Source of the DNA: a bacterium
GTDB taxonomy: Bacteria; Patescibacteriota; Minisyncoccia; Phycocordibacterales; UBA918
DNA: 38,317 nt
Assembly (NCBI GenBank): GCA_030430425.1
Contig: JAUIFS010000003.1
Coordinates: 1 to 38,317, forward strand
Direction of reading: 5' to 3'
Within the stretch, counting starts at the first letter, position 1, and every line of letters starts with the position of its first letter. The notes beneath the pieces are model-generated. The model made no database searches. It was given only the letters and a program-made list of their open reading frames with translations, and had not been told where the DNA came from. Below are positions 2,103 through 23,390 of this stretch, one piece after another. The position numbers were made by a program, and so were the translations under genes.

Positions 2103-2106
2103 ATAA

Positions 2107-2320
2107 GGTGCCCCGGGAGGAATGATCCTGACGGTTTCTAAATTCGTCATACTTCCTCATTAAGAACCGCGGGACACGTCTCGCTTGTTCGTAAACTCAC
2201 ATCGCTCCGACGGTTCGATTCCTCAAAAGGTGCATTAGCACCTTTTTTCTGCGGGCACAAACAAAAATGGCACACCGAGGAGTGCTCATTTTTGTACTCG
2301 TGCCCCCGGGAGGAATCGAA
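2107..2320 (-). repeat. tRNA-3'-end-mimic module E1 (second downstream of tRNA-Arg)
   Basis: Bounded by ggtgccccgggaggaat (2107-2123) and gtgcccccgggaggaatcgaa (2300-2320), both matching the tRNA-Arg 3' end. Inverted T-arm copy ttcgattcctc at 2214-2224. Confidence 0.6.
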
Positions 2321-2508
2321 GCTTACTTTTAAACGATACGAGCAAAATGGAAATTTATTTACATTTTTGAGTGAGTGAAGAAAGAAATTTATTTACAGCT
2401 TCAGTACAGGTTGTCACCATTTTCTTTGGAAAATGCTAGGCAACCTTTTCGATTCCGTGGACCAATTTAAAAAGCTGCCAGCAAGAAGCTGACAACTTTT
2501 TAAATCGG
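2321..2508 (-). repeat. tRNA-3'-end-mimic module E2 (immediately downstream of tRNA-Arg)
   Basis: Between the 21-nt direct repeats at 2300-2320 and 2508-2528. Long hairpin CCGATTTAAAAAG..CTTTTTAAATTGG. Inverted T-arm copy ttcgattcc at 2448-2456. Contains an AGGTTG..CAACCT hairpin. Confidence 0.6.
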
Positions 2509-4130: not shown

Positions 4131-4306
4131 GTGCCTGCCCTCGATGAGAGACTTTCTCGTTACAGGACCGGTACACCTTTTGGGTATTTCTGTTCGTTCC
4201 TCCAGAAATTCCGCAAAAGCTTTTCAAGTCTCCCGTAACAGTGCCTTTGCACTGTTACTTCATCGCGCACAAAAAGAAAAACGCCCCGGAGGGCGTCTTC
4301 TTTTTG
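4131..4306 (-). repeat. tRNA-3'-end-mimic module E3 downstream of tRNA-Val
   Basis: 19-bp inverted copy of the tRNA 3' end plus flank (4260-4278 vs 4298-4316). Inverted T-arm 4223-4232 vs 4317-4326. Sense-like copy cgatgagagact near 4142-4153. Confidence 0.7.
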
Positions 4307-7320: not shown

Positions 7321-7767
7321 ATGGAAACAATTAATGACTATTCATTCGGTGTGGTGCCTGTTCAAAAGGTAGGAGATGCATGGAAAGTGTTTCTTATACA
7401 TCAAATACCACGAAGAGGATCTCTCTTTTGGACCTTCCCAAAAGGACACCCAGAAGAAGGGGAAAGTCATGAAGAGACAGCGTTACGTGAGTTGCGTGAA
7501 GAGACAGGGCTTGTTCCTGATATTTTTAAGAAAGATGTAACGTTCACACAAGAGTACACCTTTATACATGATGGTCAGAGTATAGAAAAAAAAGTTGTCT
7601 ATTATTTGGGCGTTATTTCTACTGCAGAGTTTCAAATACAAATTGATGAAATCCATGAAGCGAAGTGGTGTACATTTGCCGAGGCAAGAGTATTATTAAC
7701 TCATGACATCGCGAAGCAGCTTCTGGATGAAGTTGCAGCGTATTTAGCAGATAACAATTCAGTATGA
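7321..7767 (+). CDS. NUDIX hydrolase
   Basis: Nudix box GHPEEGESHEETALRELREETGL. The ORF-track start at 7225 lies inside tRNA-Leu, so the ATG at 7321 is preferred. Confidence 0.92.
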   Translation: METINDYSFGVVPVQKVGDAWKVFLIHQIPRRGSLFWTFPKGHPEEGESHEETALRELREETGLVPDIFKKDVTFTQEYTFIHDGQSIEKKVVYYLGVISTAEFQIQIDEIHEAKWCTFAEARVLLTHDIAKQLLDEVAAYLADNNSV

Positions 7768-8582: not shown

Positions 8583-8644
8583 CCACGTACCTAAGCGGCA
8601 AAAATGGACGCAATTGCGTCCATTTTTGCCGCTTAGGTACGTGG
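8583..8644. terminator. 62-nt perfect palindrome, likely bidirectional terminator between convergent genes
   Basis: CCACGTACCTAAGCGGCAAAAATGGACGCAA followed directly by its exact reverse complement. Confidence 0.8.
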
Positions 8645-10277: not shown

Positions 10278-10392
10278 AGGACTGTGTGATATATTCCTCA
10301 CATCAGTCCGCCGTTCGATTCCGGACGAAAGCTATACGCTTTCTTAGTCACCCAAAACACAAAAGACCCCAGAAGGGGTCCGTGTGTTTTGG
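10278..10392 (-). repeat. Orphan tRNA-3'-end-mimic module E4
   Basis: Hairpin GGACTG..CAGTCC, T-arm-like ccgttcgattccgg (10311-10324), GAAAGC..GCTTTC hairpin (10327-10343), tagtcaccc (10345-10353), terminator-like hairpin (10352-10392). No matching tRNA in the window. Confidence 0.55.
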
Positions 10393-10561: not shown

Positions 10562-10813
10562 ATGAAAACTATCACTACTACCAATGCTCGTAAACAAATC
10601 GCACAGCTTATTAATGCTGTGAGGGATACGGGGGATGTGTTTGCAATAGGGCGTCGTAATCGTCCAGAAGTGCTCCTCATAAAATTTCCTGCTGAGTACA
10701 ACAGCGAATTAAATGATATTACAAACGTGAACACCTATTCAGAGAGCTTTTCGTTTTTAGAGAATGAACCAGAGACATATTCAGTAAATGATTTAAAGAA
10801 ACGATATGTATAA
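10562..10813 (+). CDS. Phd/YefM-like antitoxin
   Basis: MKTITTTNARKQIAQLINAVRDTGDVFAIGRRNRPEVLLIK; overlaps the toxin gene. Confidence 0.75.
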   Translation: MKTITTTNARKQIAQLINAVRDTGDVFAIGRRNRPEVLLIKFPAEYNSELNDITNVNTYSESFSFLENEPETYSVNDLKKRYV

Positions 10814-11132
10814 GAAAGGGACTATTGTGTTGGTCCCTTTTCCGTTTACCGATTTGTCAGGTAGCAAAGTGCGACCAGCGGTGATTGTTTCTGATGGAAA
10901 GGTTGGGTCTGACGTTGTACTTTTGTTTATCACTTCACAGTTAAAATTAAAAGGGAGACATATTGTCCAAGTCGTTCCAGATCAAGAAAATGGCATAAAA
11001 ACCAAGTCTAAAATAGTTTGTTCTAAAATTGCCACTTTGGAAGCAAAAATCATACTCGGTGAGTTAGGGGTGCTGGCACCACCAGTTTTAAAAAGTATTG
11101 ATATTGAGCTCAAAAAAGTCTTGGGCCTATAA
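10806..11132 (+). CDS. PemK/MazF-family toxin
   Basis: GTIVLVPFPFTDLSGSKVRPAVIVSD motif. Confidence 0.85.
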   Translation: MYKKGTIVLVPFPFTDLSGSKVRPAVIVSDGKVGSDVVLLFITSQLKLKGRHIVQVVPDQENGIKTKSKIVCSKIATLEAKIILGELGVLAPPVLKSIDIELKKVLGL

Positions 11133-11142
11133 CTTTTTATCG

Positions 11143-11248
11143 GGGCGACGTCGTAGATTGAGAAAGTGCGGGGCACTTTTGCAAGAGGTTGCCAGCTGCG
11201 CCTGCAGCGACAACCTGAACAGTCTCTGTATAGAGATGTTCGAACTGT
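11143..11248 (-). repeat. Repeat with gggcgacgtcgtag / gttcgaactgt ends and an inserted AGGTTGCCA..GACAACCT hairpin block
   Basis: Ends recur at 12193-12206 and 12222-12232. Hairpins AAAGTGcgggCACTTT, AGGTTGccaGCTGC..GCAGCgaCAACCT (11186-11215), CTCTgtatAGAG. Confidence 0.6.
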
Positions 11249-11296
11249 GTTTGAGTAATTACAGGATGAAACTGTTTACATTCCAGTTTTATCTAA

Positions 11297-11944
11297 CTAA
11301 ATTACTTCTGATGATTCAGCAATCTCAAGCATTTCTCTTACGTCTTCATCTTTCAAACACTCCTCTACGTTACTCCATAGTTCAAGGTTAACCTTTGCCC
11401 ATTTTAGGTACGACTGCTTTGCTTTATCAGTGTAGAAATATATTCCACTTTCCATAAGGTGTGTTTGTTCATCACATATTTTATGGGCAAGTTTAGCAAC
11501 ATCTACGTTGTTCTCCTCAATATACTTACTGGCAAATAATATCGGAGTCACTGGCAATGCTTTAAAAAGAGTATCAGCATCACTCAATGCTTTTGACTCT
11601 AGAGAAATATCACCATGTCGATTAGTCGTGCATTCGTCCATTATGATTTTTTCAATTTTCTCTATTTCTTCTGATGAGTAACCAGCTTTTGAAAGAATCT
11701 CCTCTCGCAGACCTTTCCCTGCTTCTGGTTTAGAGTTAGATTCGACAATGTAATTCAAATCATGTACCAAAGCGGCCGACTGAACGAGAAACTCGTTCGC
11801 TCCCAATTCCTTAGCAAATACAATGCTTTTGTTTGTAACAAAAGTGATGTGATGCCATCCATGAAACAACAGTCCATCCTGATGTTGTTGGTATAAGGTC
11901 ACAAGTTGACTTCGCAATTGGTTAATTTTTTCTGTTTCAGACAT
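11297..11944 (-). CDS. HD-domain phosphohydrolase-like protein
   Basis: FHGWHHITFV..AALVHDLNYI..LSDADTL pattern. Confidence 0.75.
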   Translation of the reverse strand: MSETEKINQLRSQLVTLYQQHQDGLLFHGWHHITFVTNKSIVFAKELGANEFLVQSAALVHDLNYIVESNSKPEAGKGLREEILSKAGYSSEEIEKIEKIIMDECTTNRHGDISLESKALSDADTLFKALPVTPILFASKYIEENNVDVAKLAHKICDEQTHLMESGIYFYTDKAKQSYLKWAKVNLELWSNVEECLKDEDVREMLEIAESSEVI

Positions 11945-12004
11945 GATAAGAGTATATCAGTTCGAGCTTCCCATTAGGGTAGCTGTGAGAGCGCTATAAA
12001 TATA

Positions 12005-12232
12005 CTTCAAAATGTTGGGCGACTACCGGGGTAATCTTTCATTACATGAACTGTACACCTTTTGGCTAGATTGTTTCGCTATGCTCACAATCTATCTCAA
12101 AAGCTTTTCGATTCGCGCAACGCTTTTCAGAGAAAAGTTGCGCCCAGTAGTCGCCCAAATGCAAAAAACTCCCGAAGGAGTTTCTGCATTCAGGGCGACG
12201 TCGTAGAGGACGTTCGAACTGTTTTTGAAGAG
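12005..12232 (-). repeat. tRNA-3'-end-mimic module E5 (tRNA-His signature, no adjacent tRNA)
   Basis: gggcgactaccggg (12017-12030) identical to the tRNA-His 3' end (13070-13083). Inverted gtagtcgccc near 12148-12156. Hairpins 12059-12103 and 12115-12143. gggcgacgtcgtag at 12193-12206. Confidence 0.65.
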
Positions 12233-12259
12233 AGGAATGATACGACTGTCTTTATCCCA

Positions 12260-12796
12260 TTACTGCATAAGGTTGTTTAACTTTCGAACAGTGTTTACAT
12301 TACGAACTGTCATATTCTTATAAATCTCTGTACCAATTATGTCGTTCATCTTGCTTTTTCCATAATCTTTCTTTTTCAAATGCCAGACCACTGCACCGTC
12401 AATATAGAGCAGTGTGTCTACCTTGGGATTTGTAACAATTTTCTTGAGCGTACCTCGGTTTGCAAAACTGTTCCAAAGAAACATAACATCGGTCTTGTAT
12501 TCTTTGTCGTTGATCCAGTCGGCTGGTATCTCCTTATTTACCTTATCTATGCTTTTTTTGCCACGGAGCACAACAGGGATATCAAGTTCAAAATTTTTCT
12601 TGATGGCTCTTTCAATCTCATTAGCTATCTTCGTGGTGTCACTTTTCTTAGTTTCAAAGATTACATTCCCTGAATTTATATAGGTAGCGACATTGGTGTA
12701 CCCAAGTGACTCAAAGCAAATTTTGAGTCTAGCCATTTCTATCTTATTGTTACCGCCAACGTTGATTCCACGAAGAAGTGCGACGTACTTTTGCAT
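12260..12796 (-). CDS. DUF1697 protein
   Basis: MQKYVALLRGINVGGNNKIEMARLKICFESLGYTNVATYINSGNVIF. Confidence 0.92.
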   Translation of the reverse strand: MQKYVALLRGINVGGNNKIEMARLKICFESLGYTNVATYINSGNVIFETKKSDTTKIANEIERAIKKNFELDIPVVLRGKKSIDKVNKEIPADWINDKEYKTDVMFLWNSFANRGTLKKIVTNPKVDTLLYIDGAVVWHLKKKDYGKSKMNDIIGTEIYKNMTVRNVNTVRKLNNLMQ

Positions 12797-12859
12797 ACTA
12801 AAAGTATACCAGTTCTACCTTCTCGGTATGGTATCTAGAAAACCCTTATGATACTTACT

Positions 12860-13070
12860 TCAAAATGCTGGGCGGCTACTGGGAAGTTCGGTCACGAATC
12901 ACTAAGTATATTGGTTCGTCTTCGACTCCAAATCTACTAAGTGTTCTCGACCCCGACTCATTCGCGGCAAGGCCGCATCATTCCGTCTTTCGATTCCCGG
13001 ACAGAAGCAAAGCAGTTTGCTTCTTTAGCCGCCCCATACGCAAAAATCCCCGAAAGGGGATTTTGCTTTG
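12860..13070 (-). repeat. tRNA-3'-end-mimic module E6 downstream of tRNA-His
   Basis: Degenerate sense copy tgggcggctactggga (12870-12885). Inverted T-arm ttcgattcccgg (12989-13000 vs 13079-13090). Inverted acceptor tagccgccc (13026-13034). AGAAGCAAA..TTTGCTTCT hairpin 13003-13024. Confidence 0.65.
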
Positions 13071-13143
13071 GGCGACTACCGGGAATCGAACCCGAACTTC
13101 CGGTACCACAAACCGGAGCACTAACCGTTATACTATAGTCGCC
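13071..13143 (-). tRNA. tRNA-His(GTG)
   Basis: G-1:C73, acceptor GCGACTA/TAGTCGC, anticodon loop TTGTGGT, T-arm CGGGTTCGATTCCCG. Confidence 0.93.
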
Positions 13144-14876: not shown

Positions 14877-14882
14877 TTGAAT

Positions 14883-17768
14883 ATGTTTACGGAAATTACG
14901 AAGCGAAATGGTACAACCGTACCGTTTGATCAAAATAAAATCGTCGTCGCGATGCGAAAAGCTTTTTCGCAGGAGAATACACCTGTTACTGACGATGTAC
15001 TACAGCAAATGGCTGATCGCGTCTTTGCAAAGCTTGAGGGTGTCTGTGAAAACATTACCGAAGGTCCTTGTCCTACCGTTGAGCAAGTACAAGACCTTGT
15101 GGAGGAAACACTCATGGAGCGTGGATACTTTGTGGTTGCAAAGCACTACATCCTCTACCGATTCCAACAAACCGAAGAGCGAAAAGAAGAAGTAGTAAAA
15201 GAGATTGAAGAGAATCGTTTGATGATCAAGACTGCAGACGGCGAAGAGCAGTTTTCTCGAGACAGTGTTCGCGATTATGTTGCAAAATTCACCCATGATC
15301 TTGAAAAAGACATTGATCTCGATGGTGTTGTGAATCAAATTGAACGAGAAGTGTACGATGGTATTACCACAAAAGAGCTCACCAAATTGGTGACACTCGT
15401 ACTGCGCTCAAAGATCGAGCTCGATCCTGCGTATTCACAAGTAGCTGCGCGACAGCTCTGTGGACGCATTTATGAAGAAGCAATTATCAAAGATATCGAT
15501 GTCACCGCTGCTGATTTCACAAAGAAGTATCAAGACGCGTTTGTGCGAAATATCAAGCAAGGTATTGCCGACAAGAAGTATGCTGAAGAAATGGGAGCAT
15601 TTGACCTTACCGCGATCAGTGCAGCGATCAAGCCAGAACGAGATGACCTGTTTCGCTATCTTGGTGCAGAGACACTGAATGATCGATACTTCGTACGTGC
15701 TGCCGATGGGCATATTCTTGAGACACCACAGTACATGTGGATGCGTATCGCAATGGGGCTTGCGATCAATGAAGAGGACAAAACAGCACGTGTGCTTGAG
15801 TTCTACGAAATTATGTCAACGTTACGCTTTGTGCCATCTACTCCGACGCTGTTTCACTCAGGAACACCACACCCACAACTTTCGTCATGTTACCTCAACG
15901 TGGTGGAAGACGACCTTAACCATATCTTCAAAGTGTTTGGAGACAATGCACAGCTCTCTAAGTGGGCTGGAGGTATTGGGACTGCATGGACGAAGCTTCG
16001 TGCAACGGGTGCGCTGATCAAGACTGCAGGCATCACCTCACAAGGAACCATTCCATTTCTAAAAATCTCAAACGATGTAACGGTTGCGATCAACCGTTCA
16101 GGGCGTCGGCGTGGTGCGACGTGTGTTTATATGGAAAACTGGCACTATGACTTTCCTGACTTCCTAGAGCTCCGTAAGAACACGGGAGACGAGCGACGGC
16201 GAACCCACGACATGAATACCGCAGCATGGATTTCTGACCTATTCATGAAGCGCGTGAAGGAAAATGGTGAATGGACACTTTTCTCACCAGACGAAACACC
16301 TGAACTTACCGAAACGTTTGGGAAAGAATTTGAAGAACTCTATACAAAGTATGAAGAAATGGCAGATCGTGGAGAAATCAAACTCTTCAAAAAGATGAAG
16401 GCAGTAGATCTTTGGAAGAAGCACATTGGTATGCTCTTTGAAACAGGGCATCCATGGATCACGTTTAAAGACCCTTCAAATGTGCGTTCACCACAGGACC
16501 ACGCAGGTGTGGTACACAGTTCAAACCTGTGTACCGAGATCACACTCAATACCTCAGCGACAGAAACTGCAGTGTGTAACTTGGGATCGGTACACTTCCA
16601 TAAGCACATTACCGACGGCAAGTTTGATGAAGCACTTGCGCGAGAAACAACAACAGTAGCGATGCGTATGCTCGACAACGTCATCGATATAAACTTCTAT
16701 CCAACAAAAGAGGCGCGAAACTCAAACATGAAGCATCGTCCTGTTGGACTTGGTATTGCAGGCTTCCAAGACGCACTCTATGCAATGAACATTAACTTCG
16801 ACTCTGAAGCATGTGTGCAGTTTGCAGACCGTTCGATGGAGGTTATCTCGCATGCAGCAATTGCTGCGTCGAGTAACCTTGCACGCGAGCGTGGTGCATA
16901 CGAAAGCTTCGCAGGAAGTAAGTGGGATCGCGGCATTCTGCCGGTAGACACCATTAAGCTCCTTGAGGAAAACCGTGGCATGAGTACCGGTGTAGACACC
17001 AGCGAATCACTCGACTGGTCTGCAGTGCGAGACTCTATTAAGAAGTACGGTATGCGCAACAGTAACTGTATGGCAATTGCACCAACTGCAACAACCGCAA
17101 ACATTTCTGGTGCGATTCCAGGTATTGAACCTATCTACAAGAATATCTATGTAAAGGCGAATATCTCCGGTGACTTCATTATTGTGAACACTGCGTTGGT
17201 GAACGATCTGAAGAAGCAAGGGTTGTGGAGTAAAGATATGCTTGACGCATTGAAATACAATGATGGGTCAGTTGCAAACATTGCCGAAATTCCTGCTGAG
17301 TTAAAAGCAAAATACAAAGAAACGTTTGAGATTGACATGCGCTGGCTCGTGAAGGCAGCTGCTGCACGTGGGAAGTGGATCGATCAGTCGCAGTCACTCA
17401 ACATCTTCTACTCAGGAACGTCAGGTAAAGACATTAGTGATCTTTATCAGTACGCATGGGAAGCGGGGGTGAAGACAACATACTATCTCCGCTCACTTGC
17501 AGCGTCACAGGTTGAGAAATCAACTATTGCCACTTCAGGGACACAGATTCGAAAGAAGAAAGAGTCATCAACACAACCAGCAGAACCTGCGGTTGCTACA
17601 GATGCACCTGCAGACCAGCCAGTGCCATCACCAATGGCAACGCCATCACCTATTCAGAAGGCACACATCGACGCTGCAAAGGTATCAGAGAAAATCGCTG
17701 CAAAACCAACAGGGCAAGTAAAACTACATGTCGCAGCAGACTCAGTGTGTGAGTCATGTGAAGGTTAA
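14883..17768 (+). CDS. nrdA: Ribonucleoside-diphosphate reductase alpha subunit (class I), probably two N-terminal ATP-cones
   Basis: KRNGTTVPFDQNKIVVAMRKAF ATP-cone; SSCYLNVVEDDL, NLCTEI, MRNSNCMAIAPTATTANISG; C-terminal CESC. Confidence 0.95.
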   Translation: MFTEITKRNGTTVPFDQNKIVVAMRKAFSQENTPVTDDVLQQMADRVFAKLEGVCENITEGPCPTVEQVQDLVEETLMERGYFVVAKHYILYRFQQTEERKEEVVKEIEENRLMIKTADGEEQFSRDSVRDYVAKFTHDLEKDIDLDGVVNQIEREVYDGITTKELTKLVTLVLRSKIELDPAYSQVAARQLCGRIYEEAIIKDIDVTAADFTKKYQDAFVRNIKQGIADKKYAEEMGAFDLTAISAAIKPERDDLFRYLGAETLNDRYFVRAADGHILETPQYMWMRIAMGLAINEEDKTARVLEFYEIMSTLRFVPSTPTLFHSGTPHPQLSSCYLNVVEDDLNHIFKVFGDNAQLSKWAGGIGTAWTKLRATGALIKTAGITSQGTIPFLKISNDVTVAINRSGRRRGATCVYMENWHYDFPDFLELRKNTGDERRRTHDMNTAAWISDLFMKRVKENGEWTLFSPDETPELTETFGKEFEELYTKYEEMADRGEIKLFKKMKAVDLWKKHIGMLFETGHPWITFKDPSNVRSPQDHAGVVHSSNLCTEITLNTSATETAVCNLGSVHFHKHITDGKFDEALARETTTVAMRMLDNVIDINFYPTKEARNSNMKHRPVGLGIAGFQDALYAMNINFDSEACVQFADRSMEVISHAAIAASSNLARERGAYESFAGSKWDRGILPVDTIKLLEENRGMSTGVDTSESLDWSAVRDSIKKYGMRNSNCMAIAPTATTANISGAIPGIEPIYKNIYVKANISGDFIIVNTALVNDLKKQGLWSKDMLDALKYNDGSVANIAEIPAELKAKYKETFEIDMRWLVKAAAARGKWIDQSQSLNIFYSGTSGKDISDLYQYAWEAGVKTTYYLRSLAASQVEKSTIATSGTQIRKKKESSTQPAEPAVATDAPADQPVPSPMATPSPIQKAHIDAAKVSEKIAAKPTGQVKLHVAADSVCESCEG

Positions 17769-17960
17769 AAAGTTCTGGGAGACCTTTTTAGGGCCTTGCC
17801 TGGTATTTCTTGAAAACTTAGAAAGAAATATCGACAAGATTGAAACTGGGAGTTTCAGAAGGTTGCCAGCTGCGAATGCAGTGACAATCTCTACTGAACT
17901 TGTAAAGTTTTTAGTCCCTCTAATAAGGGAAACTAAGTTTTCTACAGGTGTCACGTAATA
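17769..17960 (+). repeat. Structured module after nrdA, with AGGTTGCCA..GACAATCT hairpin
   Basis: TAAAAAG..CTTTTTA hairpin includes the nrdA stop. Then ATTTCTT..AAAGAAAT, TGAAACTgggAGTTTCA, and AGGTTGCCAGCTGCgaatGCAGTGACAATCT (17860-17890). Confidence 0.5.
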
Positions 17961-22863: not shown

Positions 22864-23286
22864 ATGGCAAAACAAGTATTAAACAAAATTAAAGTACAAG
22901 CAATTGGAGGAAAGGCTACACCAGCGCCACCTCTTGGACCAGTGCTTGGACAGGCTGGTATTAACATTGGTGAATTCGTAAACCAATTCAACGACCAGAC
23001 ACGTGAGCGAATGGGGGAAGTGGTTCCAACAATCATTACAGTATATGACGATCGATCATTTACGTTTGAGTGTAAGACAGCTCCAGCATCACGCATGATC
23101 CTGAAGGCTATTGGTAAAGACAAAGGCTCTGGAAAGAACCTTGTTTCAAAAGCAGGGGAAATCACAAAGGCGCAGATTCGAGAAATTTCTGAAGCGAAGA
23201 TGCAAGATCTTAATGCAGCTTCACTTGAAGCAGCTGACAAGATCATTGAAGGTACGTGTAAAAGCATGGGGGTAAAGGTCATCTAA
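22864..23286 (+). CDS. rplK: 50S ribosomal protein L11
   Basis: KIKVQAIGGKATPAPPLGPVLGQAGINIGEFVNQFN. Confidence 0.97.
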   Translation: MAKQVLNKIKVQAIGGKATPAPPLGPVLGQAGINIGEFVNQFNDQTRERMGEVVPTIITVYDDRSFTFECKTAPASRMILKAIGKDKGSGKNLVSKAGEITKAQIREISEAKMQDLNAASLEAADKIIEGTCKSMGVKVI

Positions 23287-23390
23287 ACGACCTTTACCGA
23301 GCTTTTGAGGCAGGTTCGACCGGAGGGAGAAATATGTCCAAAAGGTACACAGTCTCTGTAAGAAGTTAAAGCGATACAGACCATAATCCA

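Follow-up and report, generated by a model that had tools for sequence, protein, structure and literature searches.

Several described systems share features with the locus analyzed here. Rickettsia palindromic elements (RPEs) are selfish palindromic elements of ~100-150 nt that reside in intergenic regions, in functional RNAs and in ORFs, which they leave unbroken (PMC4316617). REP and BIME sequences are dispersed, non-autonomous hairpins found near gene ends, for which movement as folded single strands has been proposed (PMC8266576). In integrons, recombination at attC sites uses the bottom strand (PMC6393395). Lastly, tRNA-targeted islands and other integrative elements insert at the 3′ end of tRNA genes, leave a short repeat of this end at the far border and can lie in tandem.

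The sequence downstream from the tRNA-His gene of a member of the Patescibacteria resembles each of these systems in part. On balance, we lean towards the view that the 3′ end of this gene serves two systems: accessory-gene cassettes bounded by a left and a right end (LE and RE), and hairpin insertion elements that copy their target site. Like RPEs, the hairpin units are short and are also found in-frame in coding sequence, a likeness in described behavior; they differ from RPEs in occurring in a different phylum, in having arms that copy the neighboring tRNA 3′ end, in a sense-oriented location that is mostly 3′ of tRNAs, and in a structure kept by covariation. With the REP/BIME sequences associated with RAYT (TnpA-REP) they share a dispersed, non-autonomous, gene-end hairpin character, but they are larger, multi-helix and tRNA-tracking, and several unit-rich genomes lack Y1-family genes. 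Arrays of small cassettes and folded, directional sites recall integrons; here, in contrast, no integron integrase (IntI) was found, scores falling below the cut-off, and it is the sense strand that folds. Unlike typical tRNA-targeted islands, the cassettes hold one or a few genes, are stacked up to six deep in one relative (G007) and have no integrase in the window, by which we mean the whole stretch of DNA analyzed (38,317 nt).

The source is a tiny environmental bacterium of the Kaiserbacteria/Paceibacteria type, with a genome assembly of 48 contigs and 726 kb (95% complete). The genomes compared were metagenome-assembled (MAGs) and are species-level relatives of the source; they included 34 same-genus genomes, and the order-level set comprised 59 genomes from 25 genera. 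In the window, the tRNA-His gene (GTG) occupies positions 13070..13142 of the minus strand (ARAGORN; Rfam RF00005, 57 bits). Its 3′ end, GTAGTCGCCC, provides the anchor and the attachment core of the array. The original prediction viewed the region as a tRNA-His cassette array in which genes and non-coding modules, E5 and E6 among them, are separated by five tRNA-derived repeats. All five strings were found where claimed, but only three derive from the tRNA. One of these, GGGCGACTACCGGG, is exact at both 13070-13083 (the tRNA-His end itself, minus strand) and 12017-12030, and GGGCGGCTACTGGG, at 12870-12883, carries two changes relative to that end. The two GGGCGACGTCGTAG strings, at 12193 and 11143, have only the 7-nt core GGGCGAC in common with tRNA-His; rather than degenerate tRNA copies, they are part of a conserved ~70-nt sequence found in other genomes. 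The tRNA-derived strings at 12017 and 12870 are the ends of the hairpin elements E5 and E6, and an inverted copy, CCCAGTAGTCGCCC, overlooked previously, lies at the opposite end of E5 (12143-12156). The array interpretation thus held for the genes, with their LE/RE ends, differing cargo and RE-LE junctions, and failed for E5 and E6, which belong to separate structured-repeat families present beside most tRNA genes. The earlier reading went astray because it lumped together E5/E6, the GGGCGACGTCGTAG cassette right ends, and an RE bearing an inserted hairpin unit.

Two cassettes that have the same ends but differ in their genes follow one another in the window. The one closer to the tRNA begins with an LE composed of AGCATTTTGAAGTAAG and a leader that recurs elsewhere (12801..12869, minus strand), carries a DUF1697 gene (12260..12796, minus strand; PF08002, E=1.2e-41) and terminates at an uninterrupted RE, GTTCGAACGTCCTCTACGACGTCGCCC (12193..12219, minus strand). 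The LE of the other consists of AACATTTTGAAGTA plus a leader (11945..12016, minus strand). Its cargo is an HD-domain-like gene (11297..11944, minus strand; PF01966, 21.1 bits, marginal against a cut-off of 22), and its RE (11143..11250) is split by a hairpin unit of the class called type A (R1 match at 11183-11237), placed on the plus strand at about 11158-11228. Beyond lies a pair of genes for a PhdYefM antitoxin and a PemK/MazF-like toxin (10562..11132, plus strand; PF02604, PF02452). These gene assignments agree with the original ones, and the segment studied contains no visible integrase, as had been noted. The sequence gggcgacgtcgtag at 11143 and 12193 is a conserved cassette right end and not a decayed tRNA copy; read in the direction of the tRNA it is GTTCGAACATCCTCTACGACGTCGCCC. 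The boundaries of the array lie at RE and LE and not at E5/E6.

The RE was present in 11 of 36 genomes searched, every one of the same genus, and in none of 14 genomes from other families. In all annotated stretches containing tRNA-His (G000, G005, G007, G014, G020, G024 and G026) it lies downstream of this gene in a single orientation. Six REs follow tRNA-His within 16 kb in G007, at 4155, 7339, 9650, 10606, 15229 and 16033. The LE of this genome, AGATTTTGAAG, is fused to several of them (RE-LE junctions at 7339/7361, 10606/10628 and 16033/16055) and is also found directly 3′ of tRNA-His. The junctions are visible at the core, GTCGCCC, which is repeated directly at tRNA-His and at the REs, as at the distal border of a tRNA-targeted element. 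G003 shows a fusion of an RE with an LE of the window type; the leader of this type also occurs after the tRNA-end copy of E5 in the window, in G014, and immediately 3′ of tRNA-His in G017. Across about 17 genomes tRNA-His stays beside MscL while the genes downstream differ between relatives. Gene order is therefore not shared by all, nor were the repeats scattered at random positions, the two outcomes that would have spoken against an array.

By eye, cargo ORFs of the six-RE array (L266, G007:C19:4000-23999) resemble Nudix, phosphatase and response-regulator genes. The other strand of the RE (window 12193-12260, plus strand) can be read as a conserved short peptide (GDVVEDVRTVFEERND..IP). In this frame, 61% of single-base codon changes are synonymous, against 22% at random. 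Since the LE type of the window has an ATG immediately beyond the core, an RE-LE junction rebuilds a short ORF. The conservation of the RE could partly be due to selection acting on a small gene.

The hairpin units form the other component. Between tRNA-His and E6 stands a terminator-like hairpin (13036..13066, minus strand), and similar hairpins separate many other tRNAs from their units. E6 itself (12870..13034, minus strand; R2 match at 12890-12954) belongs to type C; a small hairpin interrupts its inverted copy of the tRNA-His 3′ end, after which come a body and a sense copy, CCCAGTAGCCGCCC. E5 (12017..12158, minus strand; R1, 70.9 bits at 12031-12115; predicted fold -61.8 kcal/mol) is a type A unit of similar layout, in which an inverted tRNA-His 3′ end, likewise split by a hairpin, precedes the body (AAAGCTTTTG..CAAAAGGTGTAC) and a sense copy. 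At 10279..10353 (minus strand) lies a decayed unit whose inverted arm is of the tRNA-His type (GGGTGACTA-hairpin-CCGGAATCGAA). Behind tRNA-Val, a type A unit (4143..4300, minus strand) shares its body with E5 and is flanked by arms copied from tRNA-Val (GCGCGATGAGAGACTT). Since the same body thus occurs between His arms and Val arms, body and arms have separate histories. Two units behind tRNA-Arg (2105..2500, minus strand; R1 at 2384-2456) have copies of the tRNA-Arg 3′ end as their borders, near 2105 and 2306. Others follow protein genes: two type A units (17795..17917, plus strand; E=6.5e-4 for the one at 17849 and E=0.36 for that at 17795) lie 3′ of a 963-aa ORF (14877-17768), and one (23291..23372, plus strand) lies at the stop codon of a 140-aa L11-like ORF (22864-23286), its 5′ arm being an inverted copy of the last bases of this gene (GTAAAGGTC/GACCTTTAC). 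The window also contains a perfect 31-nt inverted repeat with zero spacer (8583-8644).

The DNA after 31 tRNA genes follows one plan. A terminator-like hairpin comes first, then the 3′ end of the adjacent tRNA in inverted form, often interrupted by an additional small hairpin; the conserved body and a sense copy of the tRNA 3′ end come last. Hand alignment of 15 hand-picked type A units yielded four helices with 91.6% of cells paired and covariation at 21 of 24 pairs; versions slid along the alignment were 34-47% paired, and none of 500 shuffles did as well. When 60 distinct matches were aligned to the resulting model, all 24 pairs covaried and 94.1% were paired. The hairpin of type C is near-invariant, 98.9% paired with just 3 covarying pairs, and recurs in other genomes. 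Mismatches on the sense strand of type A were G.U rather than A.C in a ratio of 50:18 (p=1.3e-4), an excess that fits RNA as well as single-stranded DNA and to which the RNA bias of the model itself may contribute. The excess of G.U over A.C indicates that it is the sense strand that folds, i.e., the one running in the direction of the tRNA. Two nested arrangements were seen (L137, about 10089, and L106, about 4741), in which a type A body lies within a body of another type (GGTGAGAA-hairpin-TTCGCAAGACC...).

Searches of the source genome with E5 and with E6 returned matches chiefly beside other tRNA genes. The type A model detected units in 49 of the 59 order-level genomes and 16 of the 25 genera, with up to 69 copies in less than 1 Mb. 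Nearly all of the 40 repeat-bearing stretches belong to MAGs of Patescibacteria or of unclassified bacteria, the named relatives being Ca. Kaiserbacteria and other Paceibacteria. One contig (L179, PWLF01000172.1) of a MAG labelled Bacteroidales carries the type A core; the label is probably a binning error. No Rfam family corresponded to the units, tRNA being the only hit at gathering score, and the open-licence papers searched, preprints excluded, held no description of tRNA-tail repeats or integrons in Patescibacteria; by these sources, the repeat family is previously uncatalogued.

The arms of the units track the local tRNA. In the 1200 nt downstream of 31 tRNAs, 14-mers matching the tRNA's own 3′ end (up to 3 mismatches) numbered 24 against about 2.5 expected; the control with mismatched tRNAs gave 0.08 per tRNA. 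The sense copy matched the 3′ end of its own tRNA at 10 or more of 12 positions in 45 of 64 units drawn from many genomes, compared to 2.3% for other tRNAs (0 of 2000 permutations), and the inverted arm showed a weaker trend in the same direction (31 of 64 versus 5.3%). Units with a tRNA upstream were on its strand, a median of 74 nt behind it. Some units follow protein genes and have as their arm an inverted copy of the last bases of the gene; some lie near a host gene and have no clear sense copy. Many tRNAs have no unit. In L205 and L144, where no intact tRNA was called upstream, units stand behind an apparent tRNA 3′ end (GGTTCGAATCCTATCCGCGGAGCCA); the gene is possibly an intron-split tRNA.

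Presence and absence of units could be observed at several sites. An exonuclease gene (L236, G000:C13:2601-3284, minus strand) contains an in-frame unit of about 93 nt, or 31 residues; in 31 of 31 other genomes that have the gene, the homologue aligns with residues 1-42 and 74-228 and has no insert. A search of solved structures with the interrupted exonuclease gave no result. E6 is absent from G017, where tRNA-His runs directly into the leader that follows E6 in the window. Similarly, the RE at 11143 is filled by a type A unit and the copy at 12193 is empty. Tandem near-identical units in L145 (period 155 nt) and L119 show that units multiply locally. Excised circles or polymorphic pairs of near-identical strains were not seen among the genomes compared.

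As to enzymes, the source genome encodes one Xer-like tyrosine recombinase, on a contig other than that of the window, two Y1-family genes and no large serine recombinase (no PF07508 match). Relatives have mostly one tyrosine recombinase each, Xer-like in most, and Y1-family genes are present in 32 of the 59 genomes. Searches for these three classes tied no recombinase to either cassettes or hairpin units, and a cognate integrase, as expected of a tRNA-targeted element, was not found. Y1/RAYT genes were rejected as movers of the units, their presence not tracking that of the repeats: the unit-rich genomes G002, G014, G018, G025, G037, G044 and G046 have none. A viral origin was discarded as well: neither the type A core nor the RE had an exact match in 2.9 million viral contigs. 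One tRNA-Ser-adjacent element with a large serine recombinase (L289, G013:C19:1-9000) also carries an ORF of 315 aa whose product looks, by eye, like a CRESS/HUH-type Rep with helicase motifs.

Other readings must be weighed against the two-system view. For the hairpin units, the main alternative is a role as RNA in tRNA maturation: they would be functional, non-mobile elements, transcribed together with the tRNA, in which the inverted arm and the sense copy act as a switch or a tRNA-like minihelix, adjusting the maturation, the termination or the stability of the RNA upstream. Their invariable position on the strand of the tRNA and 3′ of genes, their occurrence in 16 of the 25 genera sampled, the fit of the arms to the local tRNA, and strong covariation with an excess of G.U on the sense strand all agree with such a role, and the covariation could result from a function as RNA instead of being needed for movement. 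We nevertheless find this alternative somewhat improbable, given the in-frame insertion in the exonuclease exclusive to the source genome, the unit lodged in the RE at 11143, the within-genus variation at tRNA-His and the many tRNAs free of units. Furthermore, the inverted copy includes genomic bases past the tRNA end and no complement of CCA, indicating that it was copied from DNA and not from the mature tRNA; for the same reason, tRNA-primed reverse transcription with the inverted arm as primer-binding site was rejected. That chance or faulty assembly produced the pattern, through GC-rich short matches or misassembled tRNA repeats, is practically negligible. Matches to the tRNA-His end (up to 3 mismatches) number 4 against 0.66 expected, a count reached by 1 of 100 shuffles, and the genomes are MAGs; however, this explanation is refuted by the recurrence of the same architecture across dozens of independent genomes and by covariation that greatly exceeds the controls.

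The cassettes invite comparison with better-known systems. A hairpin unit adjoins each cassette gene of the window, the units are folded and directional with ends that match the anchor, and the cargo (toxin-antitoxin, DUF1697, HD) is of the kind integrons carry. E5 and E6 would then be attC-like folded sites, with tRNA-His as attI. This seems very unlikely: cassettes end in RE/LE rather than in hairpins, as in the G007 array, whose borders show no R1 match, and units also follow core genes and interrupt an ORF. Besides, the best recombinase is Xer-like, its 143.6 of 265 bits falling far under the integron-integrase cut-offs, and it is the sense strand that folds, in contrast to the bottom strand used by attC (PMC6393395). 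The gene cassettes might instead be leftovers of tRNA-targeting large serine recombinase elements, kept after loss of the recombinase. Large serine recombinases are encoded by 36 of the 59 genomes, some of the elements adjoin or end at tRNA genes, and a broken recombinase of this class lies inside the tRNA-His array of G005. We rate this origin as possible but rather doubtful, since the source genome has no such gene, none is found among the ORFs of the 20-kb six-RE stretch of G007, and a common core as short as 7 nt is more typical of tyrosine recombinases.

In the two-system model, tRNA-His would serve as the attachment site for small accessory cassettes of the form LE-gene(s)-RE; site-specific recombination at the core GTCGCCC (7 nt) would stack them and generate the order rebuilt tRNA end / LE ... 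RE / LE ... RE. The integrase for the cassettes of the source genome would have to act in trans or have been lost. E5, E6 and their kin would be small insertion elements of about 80-200 nt, both non-coding and non-autonomous, that insert in sense orientation at gene ends, mostly tRNA 3′ ends. After insertion, copies of about 12-22 nt from the end of the host gene would flank the body, inverted on one side and direct on the other, and tandem multiplication of units would follow. We postulate that the unit moves as a folded sense strand, either single-stranded DNA or RNA, and that the arm arises at the tRNA end, through either copying or a template switch. It is conceivable, though we think it unlikely, that Patescibacteria harbor site-adaptive mobile elements in this sense, with no fixed attachment sequence, arms rewritten to the host tRNA 3′ end as a terminal stem, and a host enzyme acting on the folded strand.

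Non-coding repeats thus accompany most tRNA genes despite the very small genomes of Patescibacteria, and their tRNA-matched arms raise the question of how part of a target can be copied by the very element that inserts into it. The tRNA-His cassettes, for their part, offer a simple view of how small genomes may gain single accessory genes, such as those for toxin-antitoxin, Nudix-like, HD and DUF1697 proteins.
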